Assembly (NCBI GenBank): GCA_015488885.1
Contig: WFMW01000018.1
Span: forward strand, 1-64,000
DNA: 64,000 nt
Reading direction: 5' to 3'
Source: Gammaproteobacteria bacterium
GTDB taxonomy: Bacteria; Pseudomonadota; Gammaproteobacteria; SZUA-229
The position numbers and the translations under genes were made by a program. Positions 17,691-51,537 of this stretch are shown here, piece after piece (positions within the stretch are counted from its first letter, which is position 1; each line of letters starts with the position of its first letter). Below the pieces are notes generated by a model. The model worked only from the letters and a program-made list of their open reading frames with translations. It made no database searches and was not told the origin of the DNA.

Positions 17691-19028
17691 ATGCAAACAA
17701 TTAGTCATTTTATTCAGCAACTTAATGCCCTTGTATGGGGGCCAGCAATGCTGGTGCTTATTTTAGGTACGGGTCTGTATTTAATGACAGGCTTGAAACT
17801 GCTGCCATTACGCCGACTGAAATATGGCTTCAGCATGTTGTGGCAGGGGCGTTCTTCTTCGGGCGATGGTGACATTGCGCCCTTTAATGCACTGATGACT
17901 TCCTTATCCGCTACCATTGGTACCGGAAATATTGCTGGTGTTGCCACGGCCATCTTTCTGGGTGGTCCTGGCGCTCTGTTCTGGATGTGGTGTACCGCAC
18001 TGGTAGGAATGGCCACCAAATATGCTGAAGCGGTTCTTGCAGTGCACTTCAGAGAAGTAGATGCCAATGGGAATTTTATTGGTGGGCCTATGTTTTACAT
18101 CAAAAATGGTCTGGGTACCCACTGGAAATGGTTGGGCACAGGCTTTGCCATATTTGGCGGTATTGCCGGCTTTGGTATTGGCAATACCATTCAGGCCAAT
18201 TCTGTTGCTGATGCACTGCAACGTCAATTTGAAATCCCCCCTTTTTTAACCGGACTGGTAATGGCAGGCCTGGTTGCACTGGTTTTAATTGGTGGTATTC
18301 GTCGGATTGCTGACGTAGCAGGTAAGCTGGTGCCGGTAATGGCAATCAGTTATTTCATTGCGGGTATTGTAGTGCTGGCGCTGAAGTTTAATAACCTGCC
18401 TGCCGCTTTCGATTTAATTCTTAGCCATGCTTTTACGCCGGTTGCCGCCAGTGGCGGTTTTGCTGGTGCAGCGGTCTGGGCGGCGATTCGGTTCGGGGTG
18501 GCACGGGGTATTTTTTCTAACGAAGCTGGTCTGGGTAGTGCGCCAATTGCTCATGCCGCCGCTGCCACGGATAATGCGGTGCGTCAGGGAACGATTGCCA
18601 TGCTGGGCACCTTTATTGATACGATTATCATCTGCTCGATTACCGGTCTGGTTATTATTGTCAGTGGCAGCTGGAACAGTGGTGCAACGGGTGCAAGCTT
18701 ATCAACACAGGCATTTGAACACATACTGCCGGGTATTGGTGGTTATATTGTTTCATTGGGATTAGCCGTATTTGCTTTTACCACGGTTATTGGCTGGAGT
18801 TTTTATGGCGAGAAATGCAGTGAATATCTGTTTGGCATTCGTGCCATTATTCCTTTTAGAATTCTCTGGGTACTGGTTATACCGCTGGGTGCCAGTGCGA
18901 ATCTATCATTTATCTGGCTGATAGCTGATACTCTGAACGCACTGATGGCTATACCTAATCTGATTGCATTGATTTTATTAAGTCCTGTTGTATTTAAATT
19001 ATCACAGGTTTATTTTCAAAAGCATTGA
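17691..19028 (+). CDS. Sodium:alanine/amino acid symporter (AgcS family)
   Basis: 445 aa with about ten transmembrane helices. Family signatures are FNALMTSLSATIGTGNIAGV near residues 64-83, GPGALFWMWCTALVGMATKY near 92-111, and the conserved FSNEAGLGSAPIAHAAA near 275-290. AgcS carriers import alanine or glycine with Na+. It starts at the ATG at 17691. It is the last gene before the two-component cluster and has no obvious operon partner. Confidence 0.93.
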   Translation: MQTISHFIQQLNALVWGPAMLVLILGTGLYLMTGLKLLPLRRLKYGFSMLWQGRSSSGDGDIAPFNALMTSLSATIGTGNIAGVATAIFLGGPGALFWMWCTALVGMATKYAEAVLAVHFREVDANGNFIGGPMFYIKNGLGTHWKWLGTGFAIFGGIAGFGIGNTIQANSVADALQRQFEIPPFLTGLVMAGLVALVLIGGIRRIADVAGKLVPVMAISYFIAGIVVLALKFNNLPAAFDLILSHAFTPVAASGGFAGAAVWAAIRFGVARGIFSNEAGLGSAPIAHAAAATDNAVRQGTIAMLGTFIDTIIICSITGLVIIVSGSWNSGATGASLSTQAFEHILPGIGGYIVSLGLAVFAFTTVIGWSFYGEKCSEYLFGIRAIIPFRILWVLVIPLGASANLSFIWLIADTLNALMAIPNLIALILLSPVVFKLSQVYFQKH

Positions 19029-19057: not shown

Positions 19058-19075
19058 GTTCAGCTTTCGTTCAGC
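19058..19075 (+). promoter_or_regulatory. Direct-repeat operator GTTCAGC-N4-GTTCAGC (PhoP-box-like)
   Basis: Two perfect GTTCAGC heptamers (19058-19064 and 19069-19075) are spaced one helical turn apart (11-bp period), the geometry used by OmpR/PhoP-family regulators. A GATAAT -10-like hexamer follows at 19084. An almost identical copy lies at 22044-22061 in front of the gene after the sensor kinase. This strongly suggests control by the regulator encoded between them. Confidence 0.65.
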
Positions 19076-19141
19076 CGTTTAACGATAATCTACCTGCATC
19101 GGGTAATCACCCGGTATGAATATGATTATTGGAGAATGGTT

Positions 19142-19564
19142 ATGAACATTATCAAAGCATCTAAATATAACGCTAAAATCCTGTCTGCCAGTGCGCTGCT
19201 ACTTGCCGTTGCCAGCCTGATATTTACACCCCTGACTGTATCGGCGCATGAACATGAAGACCATCATGGCAGGCAGACAGCGAATTATGGTCATCACGGA
19301 CACAGAATCGGGCATGTTAATCAACAGCACCACTGGCATAAAAAGGCGCATAACAGGTATAATCGCCACAATAGAAGACATCATTCATATAAACATTATG
19401 TACGCAATGAGTATTATTATCCACGTCCCCGCTACATTGATCGTGATGATTATATTATTATTGAGCATAATGATTACTACCCACGTTCCTACCGTTTACT
19501 CGATCGTCTGGGCTTTTCACTGGGTTTGTATGGCGATGATTTTGATATTATTCTGCATGATTAA
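19142..19564 (+). CDS. Exported histidine/tyrosine-rich protein of unknown function
   Basis: 140 aa from the ATG at 19142, which has GGAG seven bases upstream; the ATG at 19136 overlaps that ribosome binding site. A signal peptide ends near LTVSAHEHEDHH. The mature protein is extremely rich in His, Arg, Tyr and Asn (HHGHRIGHVNQQHHWHKKAH, then YKHYVRNEYYYPRPRY), suggesting metal binding in the periplasm. The C-terminus RLLDRLGFSLGLYGDDFDII is better structured. It is the first gene of a cluster with a PepSY protein and a two-component system, and a direct-repeat operator lies upstream. I do not know a family name. Confidence 0.75.
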   Translation: MNIIKASKYNAKILSASALLLAVASLIFTPLTVSAHEHEDHHGRQTANYGHHGHRIGHVNQQHHWHKKAHNRYNRHNRRHHSYKHYVRNEYYYPRPRYIDRDDYIIIEHNDYYPRSYRLLDRLGFSLGLYGDDFDIILHD

Positions 19565-19604
19565 AATGGCGCCAGTTAAGGCAGCTCTGAATACGATAAT
19601 TTTT

Positions 19605-19640
19605 ACCGGGGATGCCCTGACTGATCAGAGTATCCCCGGT
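19605..19640 (+). terminator. Hairpin between the His-rich gene and the PepSY gene
   Basis: A perfect 9-bp GC-rich stem (accggggat at 19605-19613, atccccggt at 19632-19640) has an 18-base loop and a short U-poor tail (ttatttc). It may reduce read-through so that the abundant exported protein is made in excess over the downstream regulators. Confidence 0.5.
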
Positions 19641-19672
19641 TTATTTCAACGGGTTAAATACCCCTTACTGTA

Positions 19673-19921
19673 ATGAAATCCAGGCTATATTGTTTTTTTC
19701 TCTTGCTGGTATTGGCCGCTCCGGCAATCTCTGCACAGACAGATTTACTGAGCAAACAGCAGGCTGTAAATATAGCCAGACAAGTTTATCCCGGGCGTGT
19801 GCTGGCAGTAAAACAAAACGGTACTATATTCAGGGTTAAAACGCTTAGTAAAAATGGCGATGTCCACATTATTATTATTGATGCTCGCAGTGGTGAAGTC
19901 ATCAATCATCCTGATGACTAA
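19673..19921 (+). CDS. Small exported PepSY-domain protein
   Basis: 82 aa: signal peptide (LVLAAPAISAQT), then a single PepSY domain with LLSKQQAVNIARQVYPGRVL, FRVKTLSKNGDVHIIIID and the terminal ARSGEVI motif. PepSY proteins in this context are often found beside PhoP/PhoQ-type systems and may modulate a sensor or protease. It lies directly upstream of the response regulator gene (42 bp) and is probably co-transcribed with it. Confidence 0.88.
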   Translation: MKSRLYCFFLLLVLAAPAISAQTDLLSKQQAVNIARQVYPGRVLAVKQNGTIFRVKTLSKNGDVHIIIIDARSGEVINHPDD

Positions 19922-19963
19922 TGCGGATACTGTACAGCAGTAACGACTTTTGAGGGATTCTCA

Positions 19964-20650
19964 GTGCGTATTCTTGTTATTGAAGATGAACCGGCGTTAC
20001 TGGCAGCGATAAAAAATCGTCTCCAGGCTGAAGCCTACATGGTCGATACCAGTAATGACGGCAATGAAGGCTATTATTTTGCCACTGAATATCCACTGGA
20101 TGCCGCGATTATCGATATTGGTCTGCCCGGCATGTCCGGCATTGAGATTATAAAGAAACTCCGTGCTGAGGGTAACCTGCTTCCTGTCTTGATTCTGACA
20201 GCACGTAGTCGCTGGCAGGAAAAGGTAGAAGGACTGGAAGCCGGCGCTGATGATTATCTGGTCAAACCTTTCCAGACAGAAGAACTGTTGGCACGTCTGA
20301 AGGCACTGTTACGCCGCGCCAGCAGGAGTCCTACCACCGAGTTAAGCTGTCGTGGCATTACGCTTAAACCTGATACGCAACAGGTTTTCCGCGATATCTC
20401 TCAGCACCGGCAACCGATTGAGGTGACTGCGTTTGAATATCGTCTGCTGGAATACCTTATGCGCCACTCAAATGAAGCGGTATCCAAAATCAGGTTAGCG
20501 GATTATCTCTACCCGCATGACGATGATCGGGACAGCAATGTTATTGAAGTATTAATCGGGCGTTTGCGTAAAAAACTGGACCCTGATGGTAGTCTGTTAC
20601 CGATTGAAACCCTGCGTAACCGGGGCTATCGTTTCACACTGTGTGATTAA
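19964..20650 (+). CDS. Response regulator, OmpR/PhoP family
   Basis: 228 aa. The receiver domain begins MRILVIEDEP with the acidic pair and has the phospho-acceptor Asp51 in AAIIDIGLPG; Thr and Lys switch residues appear in LILTARS and DDYLVKPF. The C-terminal winged helix (about 130-226) contains VTAFEYRLLEYLM and SNVIEVLIGRLRKKLD. The start is GTG at 19964, supported by a TGAGGG Shine-Dalgarno about seven bases before it. It is paired with the sensor kinase 37 bp downstream. The conserved operator at 19058 and 22044 is its likely target. Confidence 0.93.
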   Translation: MRILVIEDEPALLAAIKNRLQAEAYMVDTSNDGNEGYYFATEYPLDAAIIDIGLPGMSGIEIIKKLRAEGNLLPVLILTARSRWQEKVEGLEAGADDYLVKPFQTEELLARLKALLRRASRSPTTELSCRGITLKPDTQQVFRDISQHRQPIEVTAFEYRLLEYLMRHSNEAVSKIRLADYLYPHDDDRDSNVIEVLIGRLRKKLDPDGSLLPIETLRNRGYRFTLCD

Positions 20651-20687
20651 AATGAAATTTACCAGCCTGACCTGACAATCGCCGTTT

Positions 20688-22025
20688 ATGTCACTTAGAA
20701 AACGCATTATTATTAGCGCAAGCCTGGTGCTGGCTGTTTTTATCAGCCTCACTGTTATGGCGCTTGACCGGGCTTTTATCGACAGCACCGAAAGTGCATT
20801 GCACGATAAGCTGGTCAGTCAGGTGTATGCTTTAATGGCTGCCGCCGATATCACTGATAACAGCATACAGATGCCATCAAACCAGCTCGATGCCCTGCTC
20901 GGCCTGCCTGCTTCGGGCATGTATGCATTCATTACCGATGCCCATAATACTGTCCTCTGGAAATCCGCCTCCGCGCTGAATGCCACACCACCCCGGCCGC
21001 TCAGTCTGGCAAAAGGTCAGCATTTATTTAAAAGAATCAGTCACAACCATAACAATTATTACCTGTATGCCTACGGCGTGAACTGGATTACGCAACAGCA
21101 GCCACTGGCATTGACCTTTAATATTATCACCGATACAAAAAGTTTTACCAGGCAGATTAATCACTATCGGAAAACTTTATGGAGCTGGTTACTGGCGATG
21201 GCTGTGCTGCTATTGGTCAGCCAGGCAATCATCCTGCGCTGGGGATTATCGCCATTAATGCAGGTTAGTGATGAACTGAGCGCCATTGAATCCGGCAAAC
21301 AGCAACACATAATACAGCAATATCCGCAGGAAATTAAAAGACTTAGCAATAAGATCAATAGCCTGTTAAAGCACGAGCGGGAGCAGAAAACCCGCTATCG
21401 AAATGCTCTGGGTGATCTGGCGCACAGTTTAAAAACCCCGCTGGCTATTTTACAAAACAGTATCAATGACATGTCTATCGAGCAGATAGAAAACAGCAGG
21501 CAGCAAATCAGCCGGATGAATACCATTATTGAGTACCAGCTACAACGTGCTGCCACCAGCGGTGCAACCGGCAGTAGCAAAAATGTCAATCTGGAAAAGG
21601 CCGTTACCCGGATTACTGATGCTTTACAGAAAGTCTACCGGGATAAAAACATTCATGTTGACATCCAGGTAGACAAGGCCCTGTTTTTTTATGGTGATGA
21701 GGAGGATCTCATGGAGTTGCTGGGTAACCTGCTGGATAACGCATTCAAATGGGCCAGGCATAACGTCGACATACAGGCCCGGCAAAACACACAGGATCAA
21801 AACCTTGTAATACACATCAGTGATGATGGCCCTGGTATCAAATCCGCACAGATAAATAGCATATTACAGCGCGGCATACGCGCCGACCAGTGTACTGCCG
21901 GACAGGGTATTGGTCTGTCCATAGTGAAGGATATCGTCGATGCTTACAATGGACGTTTAATAATTGAAAAAAGCCAGCCGGGTGGCGCCAGAATAATAAT
22001 CACACTGCCACTATTATCGCACTGA
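20688..22025 (+). CDS. PhoQ-like sensor histidine kinase
   Basis: 445 aa. An N-terminal transmembrane helix (about 7-27), a periplasmic sensor of ~130 residues, a second helix (about 164-186), then a HAMP-like linker. The dimerisation box reads LGDLAHSLKTPLAILQ, with the phospho-accepting His near residue 248. The ATPase domain has the N box (ELLGNLLDNAFKWARH) and G boxes (ISDDGPGI, GQGIGLSIVKDIV). The Asn/Asp/Pro pattern and the His box are typical of PhoQ relatives. The ligand is not evident; the His-rich and PepSY neighbours hint at metal or envelope stress. Confidence 0.92.
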   Translation: MSLRKRIIISASLVLAVFISLTVMALDRAFIDSTESALHDKLVSQVYALMAAADITDNSIQMPSNQLDALLGLPASGMYAFITDAHNTVLWKSASALNATPPRPLSLAKGQHLFKRISHNHNNYYLYAYGVNWITQQQPLALTFNIITDTKSFTRQINHYRKTLWSWLLAMAVLLLVSQAIILRWGLSPLMQVSDELSAIESGKQQHIIQQYPQEIKRLSNKINSLLKHEREQKTRYRNALGDLAHSLKTPLAILQNSINDMSIEQIENSRQQISRMNTIIEYQLQRAATSGATGSSKNVNLEKAVTRITDALQKVYRDKNIHVDIQVDKALFFYGDEEDLMELLGNLLDNAFKWARHNVDIQARQNTQDQNLVIHISDDGPGIKSAQINSILQRGIRADQCTAGQGIGLSIVKDIVDAYNGRLIIEKSQPGGARIIITLPLLSH

Positions 22026-22043
22026 TACTCTGCAATACATTCT

Positions 22044-22061
22044 GTTCAGCCTTCATTCAGC
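22044..22061 (+). promoter_or_regulatory. Direct-repeat operator GTTCAGC-N4-ATTCAGC, second copy
   Basis: GTTCAGC (22044-22050) and ATTCAGC (22055-22061) repeat the 11-bp-period arrangement at 19058-19075; 16 of 18 bases are identical between the two sites, including the CTTC/TTTC spacer. It lies 74 bp before the choice-of-anchor-H gene. A third, weaker half (GTTCATGC) follows at 22064. Confidence 0.65.
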
Positions 22062-22134
22062 TAGTTCATGCTGAAATAACCACGTCGTTAATATGAATCA
22101 CTGGATTCATTATATCTAATCGTGGAGAAAAATC

Positions 22135-49155: not shown

Positions 49156-51537
49156 TTAAAGACTCTTTATGGCCTCCTCAGCTTTGCCTCTGGCAGCAAA
49201 GTTTTTATTATTACTCAGACTTTTTTCCAGGTAATGTCTGGCATTTTTTTTATCACCTGCAGCTTTATAAGCCATACCAAGATGATAATTAAAAACATTG
49301 ATATTTGGTGCAGTTGTAACCGCCTGATTCAGGCTAACAATAGCTGTTTTGTAATCGCCGTTTTTATAATATACCCAGCCGACCGTATCCTGAATAACCG
49401 GTTGCTTAACCACCTTGAGCTTATCGGCTAATGTTTTAGCGCGATTCAAGCTGCTTTTATCCTGTCGATGATCCGATAAAATAGATGCCAGATTATTCAT
49501 CGCCAGCAGATTATCTTTATGTTTTGTAAGTATCGACTCATATACATTGATAGCTTTATCATACTGACCTTTTGACTCATATATGATAGCCAGTGCCATT
49601 GAAAGTTTAATATTATCAGTAGCTTGACTCCCTGTTTCCAGAATCTTCAGCCTTTTATCTTTTTTGCCCTGTTTGTTATATATATCGGCTAATAACATAT
49701 AGGCTTCGGCAGTATCTGGCTTTTGCTGAATAATCGCTTTCAGCTCGGTTTCAGCATTTGTATTATTTTTATTGGCCATATGAATTTTGGCTAATAACAG
49801 TTTAAGGTCAATATCATCCGGGTGTTTTTTAATTGCCATTTGAACCCGATTTAAAGCTTCCTGAGTATTGCCCATTGACACCTGTATAGATGTTAACAAC
49901 TTAAGTATCTGACGATTATTTTTAACTTTTGCATAGCCCTGTTTTAATAAACTAACGGCCTGTTTGGTCTTTTTACTGTTTGCCAGATAGGGAACCGACT
50001 GTATATAGCCATTGGCCTTATCAGAGAATTGCTTTACCAGTTTTATTGCTATGGGTTTTACCGCATCAAATTTCTTTTGTTTGTTTAATAGTGCCGCTTT
50101 CATCGATAGAACTTCATAATTTGAGTCATTGATGGCGAGATAACTATCAAGCATTTTTTCGGTCTTTGCCATATCCTTGATACTGGCATAATACTTGGCC
50201 AGCTTGATTAACGCACCAGGATTAGATCGGTTATTTTCAAATGCATTATTTAATACGGCTTTTGCCTGTTCTTTTTCCCCTAATGCCTGGTGTGTGGCTG
50301 CGAGTAGAAAATAGGCTTCAATATTTTCCGGTGCTTCCTTTACCACAATACGTAAAGCGATGACTGCGTTCTGATAATCTTTATCGACTATATCAATCCT
50401 GGCGAGCAGAAAATTAACTTTCGGGTTATTGGGTGAGATAGCGATTGCATCGTGTAATTCCTTCAAGGCTTTCTGTTTTTGTTTCTCCTGCATGTATAAT
50501 GTTGCCAGTGCAATCCTTGAATTAATACCGGTAACATCTTCAGAGAAATCTTTTACTGCTGCCTGGAAAACCTGCTTTGCCTGATCAATTTTCCTGTCTA
50601 GTACATATAAATTTCCCAGTATAAGCCTGAGTTTGCCCATAGCAGGTGATTTTTTAATTAAAGCTGTTAACTCGGTTTCTGCCGCCTTATTACTTTTTAT
50701 TGACTGTATATATTTTACCAGCGTTAGCTGTCTGTCCACATCATCGGGTTTGTTTTCAATTGCTGCCCTGAGAGTAGCTTCTGCTTTTTCCTTATTACCT
50801 GTTATATTATAAAAAGCAGCAAGTTCAGTATAACTGACAAAATCATCTGGTTTTTTCTGTAATAAATCCTGGTAGATTTTTTCTGCTTTTGTATAACTTT
50901 TGTTTATAACCAGTATCTTTGCCAGTAAACGAGTTAACTGTATATTATGCTGATTTTTTTTCAGTGACTTTTCAAGAACTGTAACAGCCTTTTCATTCTG
51001 TTTTTTCTGCAGGTATAAACTGGCAAGAAAGCTGGCATTCTCAACGTGGGACGGATCTCGCTTAAAAATACTCTGTGATATCGAAAAAGCTTCATCTGGT
51101 TTTTTATTGAATATATCAATCCCGGCTTTTAGTAGTAAACCATCTATGTTCTTCGGGTCTTTATTGAGAATAAGATCACGTTTTTCTTCGGCCTTTTTTT
51201 TGTCATGAGCCAAAAGCAAATAAAAACGTCCCAGTTTTGCCTGAACCTTAAAGTTAGCCGGATCTAATTCAGCGGCTTTGGAATAATTACCAAAAGCCTG
51301 GCGGTAGTCTTTTTTCTGCTCATAGATTTTTCCAAGCTGGTAATAGGCATTAGCAAATTTTGGATCAATCTGTAAAACATTTTTTAATTCGATGCGGGCT
51401 TTTTCCAGATTGCCTGCTGCAATCGAGATTTTTGCTTTTTCAAGGTAAGCAGCTTTACGTTGATCAGCACCCCCACAGGCGGTAACAATGGATGCTAAAA
51501 AACTGATGAGAACAAAAATTTTAATAAAACGGGGCAT
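49156..51537 (-). CDS. prsT: XrtA/PEP-CTERM system TPR lipoprotein PrsT
   Basis: 793 aa lipoprotein (lipobox LASIVTACGG, Cys21) built of about twenty tetratricopeptide repeats, e.g. NAYYQLGKIYEQKKDYRQAF and AMNNLASILSDHRQDKSSLN. Its size and position next to PrsK/PrsR and EPS export genes match PrsT. In related systems it is thought to scaffold EPS secretion in the periplasm. It follows the PAPS-synthetase-like gene by 55 bp. Confidence 0.9.
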   Translation of the reverse strand: MPRFIKIFVLISFLASIVTACGGADQRKAAYLEKAKISIAAGNLEKARIELKNVLQIDPKFANAYYQLGKIYEQKKDYRQAFGNYSKAAELDPANFKVQAKLGRFYLLLAHDKKKAEEKRDLILNKDPKNIDGLLLKAGIDIFNKKPDEAFSISQSIFKRDPSHVENASFLASLYLQKKQNEKAVTVLEKSLKKNQHNIQLTRLLAKILVINKSYTKAEKIYQDLLQKKPDDFVSYTELAAFYNITGNKEKAEATLRAAIENKPDDVDRQLTLVKYIQSIKSNKAAETELTALIKKSPAMGKLRLILGNLYVLDRKIDQAKQVFQAAVKDFSEDVTGINSRIALATLYMQEKQKQKALKELHDAIAISPNNPKVNFLLARIDIVDKDYQNAVIALRIVVKEAPENIEAYFLLAATHQALGEKEQAKAVLNNAFENNRSNPGALIKLAKYYASIKDMAKTEKMLDSYLAINDSNYEVLSMKAALLNKQKKFDAVKPIAIKLVKQFSDKANGYIQSVPYLANSKKTKQAVSLLKQGYAKVKNNRQILKLLTSIQVSMGNTQEALNRVQMAIKKHPDDIDLKLLLAKIHMANKNNTNAETELKAIIQQKPDTAEAYMLLADIYNKQGKKDKRLKILETGSQATDNIKLSMALAIIYESKGQYDKAINVYESILTKHKDNLLAMNNLASILSDHRQDKSSLNRAKTLADKLKVVKQPVIQDTVGWVYYKNGDYKTAIVSLNQAVTTAPNINVFNYHLGMAYKAAGDKKNARHYLEKSLSNNKNFAARGKAEEAIKSL

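Follow-up and report, generated by a model that had tools for sequence, protein, structure and literature searches.

The closest described module to the locus analysed here is DbfQRS of Vibrio cholerae (VC1637-VC1639), which likewise combines in one operon a small exported PepSY protein, an OmpR-type regulator and a PhoQ-like kinase, according to the available parts of the papers on it (PMC12714742, PMC7768729, PMC5636140). DbfQ is reported to bind DbfS and to shift it to phosphatase activity, and in V. cholerae phosphorylated DbfR is reported to raise dbfQRS expression (PMC12714742). The system is described as being activated by LPS defects and by polymyxin or membrane damage (PMC12714742, PMC5636140), and VC1638-1639 as controlling a periplasmic protein in response to polymyxin B (PMC5636140); its output in V. 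cholerae covers biofilm, motility and sipA. DbfQRS-like modules are reported to be widespread, and the route by which the regulator reaches its direct targets is not stated in those parts of the DbfQRS papers that were available to us. A PepSY gene also accompanies BqsRS (CarRS) of Pseudomonas aeruginosa, where PA2658 and PA2659 are given as PepSY neighbours (PMC12714742), as one does here.

We analysed a stretch of 64,000 nt (the window) from contig WFMW01000018.1 of Gammaproteobacteria bacterium (SZUA-229; GCA_015488885.1), a genome of 2.63 Mb in 72 contigs. From its sequence and that of its relatives we conclude that the window very probably encodes a DbfQRS-like envelope-sensing system with its own promoter type, whose regulator would activate both its own operon and the gene of a choice-of-anchor-H protein.

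Genes of the sensor operon and the anchor-H locus

ORF analysis and profile searches upheld the genes proposed in a first-pass annotation, namely those for a His-rich exported protein, a PepSY protein, an OmpR-type regulator, a PhoQ-like kinase and a choice-of-anchor-H protein (Table 1). The PepSY gene (PF03413), with its exported product, lies directly upstream of the regulator gene, inside the limit of four genes from kinase or regulator by which we recognize a DbfQRS-like unit, and the regulator is of the OmpR type with the phospho-acceptor D51 that such a unit carries. When the regulator and the kinase were compared with the enteric equivalogs (NF008078/NF008077), both stayed below the cut-offs, the regulator with 194.6 bits against the 336 required for PhoP and the kinase with 222 bits against the 497 required for PhoQ. 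The kinase has a periplasmic domain at about residues 35-150 and the H-box DLAHSLKTPLA; comparison of its predicted structure with the PDB returned the PhoQ kinase/catalytic domain as the match, and the model carried no information on ligand. For the His-rich exported protein the profile search gave no Pfam or NCBIfam match, and an alternative start of its gene, at 19142, agrees better both with the ribosome-binding site and with the relatives.

Table 1. Features of the locus, in coordinates of the window
Feature	Position	Strand	Basis or remark
Operator 1 (putative), GTTCAGCTTTCGTTCAGC: direct repeat GTTCAG-N5-GTTCAG, 11-bp period	19058..19075	+	sensor-operon promoter
-10 hexamer TAATCT, 11 nt past second RTTCAG, without -35	19086..19091	+	same offset in distant loci
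His-rich exported protein, 142 aa	19136..19564	+	ORF; family alignment, C-terminus conserved
Small exported PepSY protein, 82 aa, DbfQ-like position	19673..19921	+	PF03413, E 9.8e-8
OmpR/PhoP-type response regulator, 228 aa	19964..20650	+	PF00072 + PF00486; D8, D51, K101
PhoQ-like sensor histidine kinase, 445 aa	20688..22025	+	best NCBIfam match PhoQ; alignment; model
Operator 2 (putative), GTTCAGCCTTCATTCAGC: GTTCAG-N5-ATTCAG	22044..22061	+	anchor-H gene promoter
Extended -10 TGC-TGAAAT (TGCTGAAAT), 11 nt past second RTTCAG	22069..22077	+	offset shared by anchor-H promoters of the family
Choice-of-anchor-H (Sden1266 domain) protein, 285 aa	22135..22992	+	NF038116, 137.3 bits, cut-off 53

Two boxes, two promoters

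Both boxes noticed in the first-pass annotation were recovered on the + strand as exact copies of GTTCAGCN4RTTCAGC. Their near-identity was thus borne out, while a more apt description of the motif is a hexamer RTTCAG that recurs after 11 bp, with a -10 element 11 nt further on: each box forms the upstream half of a promoter RTTCAG-N5-RTTCAG-N11-TRNNNT in which a -35 element is absent. The earlier picture of two boxes bracketing the two-component unit had to be given up, as each box is instead placed to drive the gene on its right, promoter 1 leading into the operon His-rich/PepSY/regulator/kinase and promoter 2 into the anchor-H gene.

A scan of the window allowing up to two mismatches gave three matches against 0.67 expected, the exact ones being these two only. 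Many random copies in coding DNA across the genome had been named as a finding that would speak against an operator; the count gave five occurrences of RTTCAGN5RTTCAG, three inside coding DNA and two intergenic, and the latter are the two boxes. The genome matches the full pattern RTTCAKN5RTTCAKN11TRNNNT perfectly at two sites only, both at this locus, and among the 16 one-mismatch promoter matches that we inspected there was no convincing target. A large regulon in this genome was rejected on the exact and relaxed pattern searches, in which the other matches inspected were coding or unconvincing.

Conservation in the family and in distant loci

Relatives of the same family, whose kinases are 55-61% identical, retain the order His-rich, PepSY, regulator, kinase, anchor-H together with both boxes. 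Box 1 was present in all 19 family loci whose contig extends to it, and box 2 in all 16 that have anchor-H downstream of the kinase, while it was absent from the three that lack anchor-H there. The family's anchor-H promoters have TGAAAT or a similar hexamer as -10, with an extended TGn, at the same 11-nt offset. One relative (L078) has four tandem copies of TTCAGC in 11-bp steps; clusters of BqsR sites have been described that are comparable to it (PMC4682146). In five genomes of one genus of the family (g11) a cytochrome c gene stands behind the box, mostly followed by a DUF3187 gene; DUF3187 had no match in this genome, a result to be read with the family's equal lack of matches throughout the control searches.

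The wider sample consisted of 80 named loci with related kinases in bacterial genomes. In a count of perfect hexamer repeats upstream of the kinase, made without reference to the motif and over periods of 7-23, GTTCAG and TTCAGC at period 11 ranked first, with 14 and 12 loci, respectively, where the remainder of the loci gave 1-3. When one mismatch was allowed, 63 of 73 distant loci had TTCAG-N6-TTCAG in the upstream DNA in coding-strand orientation (74 sites at this spacing; other spacings gave 5-16 and the opposite strand 7). Methylobacter tundripaludum SV96, Microbulbifer hainanensis and Thiohalobacter thiocyanaticus are examples of cultivable, non-pathogenic relatives with the box at their locus. 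Among 62 aligned distant boxes, 58 have TAnnnT exactly 11 nt past the second RTTCAG, other offsets giving 0-10. The aligned boxes show no conserved -35, and its place is taken by the box.

Chance or a recent duplication might account for the two boxes, which would then have no regulatory role, and their being the only intergenic copies in the genome might be read in this way. We put the probability of this at practically nil and consider it ruled out by the conservation in the family, the distant loci and the class, by the period-11 count and by the fixed -10 offset: the sequences flanking the two boxes differ from each other, and the distance to the -10 is kept across family and class. The absent -35 also bears on the direction of control. 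A regulator that sits on the box covers the -35 place and could thereby block polymerase at both promoters, and the occupied -35 region would suit such repression; we nevertheless give this reading little credence, since the lack of a -35 and the exact distance from box to -10 are those of activated PhoP (PMC3335776) and BqsR promoters, and the reported effect of phosphorylated DbfR on dbfQRS in V. cholerae is an increase (PMC12714742). We favour activation from the box.

Association of the promoter with the kinase across the class

The exact promoter RTTCAGN5RTTCAGN11TANNNT was found in 131 of 369 gammaproteobacterial genomes, and the reversed control pattern in 2. Taking a profile match at E 1e-60 or better as presence of the kinase (197 of the 369 genomes), 126 genomes have both promoter and kinase, 71 the kinase only, 5 the promoter only and 167 neither (Fisher p 1.4e-39). 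The promoter of the operon itself contributes to this co-occurrence, which thus attests that system and box go together rather than that there are distant targets. The 71 genomes with kinase and no exact promoter are attributed to the strict pattern or to more distant paralogs. As far as genome sequences tell, the promoter type is fixed and has been retained across a large class of bacteria, and a promoter code that can be searched with so low a background makes the direct regulon predictable in any genome.

Another OmpR-family regulator could in principle read the boxes, the two-component genes being merely among its targets. Direct-repeat operators of 11-bp period are common to the OmpR family, BqsR and PhoP included, the reading of the box here comes from sequence, and a paralogous OmpR-type regulator could recognize RTTCAG. 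Against this stands the near confinement of the promoter to genomes with the kinase (5 of 131 lack it), and the most constant place of the box is upstream of the sensor operon itself. Moreover, the recognition helix of the window's type of regulator (DRDSNVIEVLIGRLRKKLD in the window; consensus DRDSNVxEVxxGRLRxKLDP) is near-invariant over the same loci, among 75 aligned regulators that include the window's. We regard such a foreign regulator as improbable and retain the regulator of the operon as the one that would act on the box.

Target genes

Of the 369 genomes, 24 have an anchor-H gene. When one mismatch was allowed, the raw scan placed a box on the coding strand upstream of anchor-H in all 24, in 22 of them at a plausible distance (the exceptions are G197 and G309). 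A clean anchor-H gene call was obtained in 16 loci, the other 8 resting on the raw box scan, and these 16 have 20 coding-strand sites versus 1 on the opposite strand, with other spacings giving 0-5. In most genomes outside the family the anchor-H gene is remote from the kinase gene rather than next to it, so linkage does not explain its box. Five genomes (G109, G245, G400, G206, G411) have, between box and anchor-H, a gene whose product is a small exported protein (91-116 aa), in most cases rich in His.

These results support the earlier proposal of one regulon in which a sensor controls a His-rich exported protein and a surface-sorted protein: both boxes are conserved in the family, promoter and system co-occur over 369 genomes, and anchor-H genes unlinked to the kinase bear the box, in the five genomes above with the small exported gene in between. 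The proposal had further called the regulon self-contained, which holds for this genome at the stringency used and fails for the class, as the promoter there also precedes genes for cytochrome c and glycine-zipper proteins. Anchor-H proteins, a family of unknown function, thereby gain a regulatory context: co-expression with an envelope-sensing system is probable, as it is with a small His-rich exported protein in several genomes.

Among the first genes behind class-wide copies of the promoter (n = 79), 27 encode glycine-zipper 2TM proteins, 7 c-type cytochromes and 3 PepSY proteins; most of the products begin with a signal-peptide-like stretch, as judged by eye and with a gene picker that itself gave weight to such a stretch. 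We think it likely that these genes belong to an undescribed class-wide envelope regulon of the Gammaproteobacteria (including the former Betaproteobacteria), in which PepSY-linked PhoQ-like kinases would control a rigid promoter RTTCAG-N5-RTTCAG-N11-TAnnnT and the conserved outputs would be the sensor operon, exported proteins of the glycine-zipper and His-rich kinds, c-type cytochromes and rhombosortase-type anchor-H proteins.

The same gene list bears on the signal. The anchor-H and His-rich proteins might serve metal or divalent-cation homeostasis under a PhoQ- or BqsS-like input, and not a response to envelope damage; the exported protein is rich in histidine, BqsR responds to iron(II) (PMC4682146) and PhoQ to Mg2+. 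Across the class, however, many first genes encode glycine-zipper envelope proteins (27 of 79) and several encode cytochromes c, rather than metal transporters, and the responses reported for the DbfQRS module are to LPS defects and polymyxin (PMC12714742, PMC5636140). We consider the metal role rather unlikely and keep envelope damage as the probable input.

Sorting of the anchor-H protein

The anchor-H protein starts with an N-terminal signal peptide and ends in a tripartite tail that is Gly-rich, hydrophobic and basic, and the tails of its relatives are mostly Gly-rich as well. A rhombosortase (TIGR03902; 149 bits, cut-off 84) is encoded elsewhere in this genome; such a tail and such a gene are the points of likeness to GlyGly-CTERM/rhombosortase sorting (PMC3237569, PMC6219818). 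In the genome search the GlyGly-CTERM model (TIGR03501) did not match the anchor-H tail at E up to 10, so that surface sorting is read from the shape of the tail and from the relatives' tails; on these grounds cleavage by rhombosortase and transfer to the cell surface are probable. AlphaFold predicts the structure of anchor-H with low confidence (mean pLDDT 58), and the PDB matches of this model are generic beta-sandwich domains. We found no published regulatory link between a GlyGly-CTERM-type substrate and this two-component system in the literature searched.

Proposed mechanism

Taking into consideration the layout of the promoters and the parallel with DbfQRS, we infer the following sequence of events for binding, activation and signal. 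By analogy with DbfQ and DbfS, the PepSY protein probably binds the periplasmic domain of the kinase and holds it in phosphatase mode, and envelope damage probably acts as the input that relieves this inhibition. The phosphorylated regulator would then bind the 11-bp direct repeat head-to-tail as a dimer, over the missing -35, and activate transcription, which would result in positive autoregulation of the sensor operon and in the joint induction of the His-rich exported protein and the anchor-H protein as outputs.

Comparison with known systems

In DbfQRS, the likeness of gene content extends to the regulator, as DbfR has D8, D51 and K101 at the same positions as the regulator of the window. 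Autoregulation of DbfQRS is published and reported as positive, and here a putative autoregulatory box is seen in the sequence. The differences lie in the His-rich gene that here precedes the PepSY gene, in the surface-protein gene that bears a second copy of the operator, and in the size of the PepSY protein (82 aa here, 135 aa in DbfQ). In addition, the available parts of the DbfQRS papers describe no operator for DbfR, in contrast to the RTTCAG box found here. The open-licence literature that we searched held no report of this box or of its link to anchor-H.

BqsR, which is autoregulated, binds a pentamer direct repeat with a 6-bp spacer that is often clustered and overlaps the -35 (PMC4682146). 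Its operator is TTAAG-N6-TTAAG against TTCAG-N6-TTCAG here; position 3 differs, so that the boxes do not match the BqsR operator, and the Fe(II)-responsive BqsRS has hundreds of genomic sites (PMC4682146) against two here. PhoP/PhoQ of enteric bacteria (PMC3335776) shares with this locus the subfamily of regulator and kinase and a hexamer direct repeat with a 5-nt spacer, and in class II PhoP promoters the box replaces the -35, as it does here (PMC3335776). The PhoP box reads (T/G)GTTTA-N5-(T/G)GTTTA against RTTCAG-N5-RTTCAG here, and the boxes of this locus are not PhoP boxes. Judged from its sequence, the promoter is PhoP- and BqsR-like in layout and different in its repeat.

Variant layouts of the box and the sensor operon

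At locus L368 (genome G191), the kinase operon and the choice-of-anchor-H gene are divergent, and each side has a separate box, the 11-bp direct repeat RTTCAG-N5-RTTCAG; at L078:4397-4435, four copies of TTCAGC stand in tandem, at 11-bp steps, ahead of the His-rich gene. Outside the window's family (L273-L362), the first gene of the sensor operon often encodes a glycine-zipper 2TM (PF05433) exported protein, which replaces the His-rich protein.

Other sites and genes near the box

The sodium:alanine symporter gene of the window gave no sign of belonging to the presumed regulon. The second entry in the table lies in coding DNA and is regarded as a chance occurrence.

Neighbouring gene and additional repeat in the window
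Feature	Position	Strand	Location
Sodium:alanine symporter gene	17691-19028	+ (as box 1)	Immediately upstream of box 1
TTCAGCN5TTCAGC without flanking R bases	49739-49755		Within TPR protein gene

Single promoter matches were observed near genes for YnbE/YdbL, an M48 peptidase, Lgt and DsbA (L347, L349, L282, L312, L280, L335); these are possibly additional envelope targets, or chance matches.

In five genomes of g11, a genus in the window's family, a c-type cytochrome gene lies downstream of the box (L185, L190, L215, L218, L262), followed at most of these loci by a DUF3187 gene; the cytochrome promoters carry CATAAT or GATAAT 11 nt past the second repeat.
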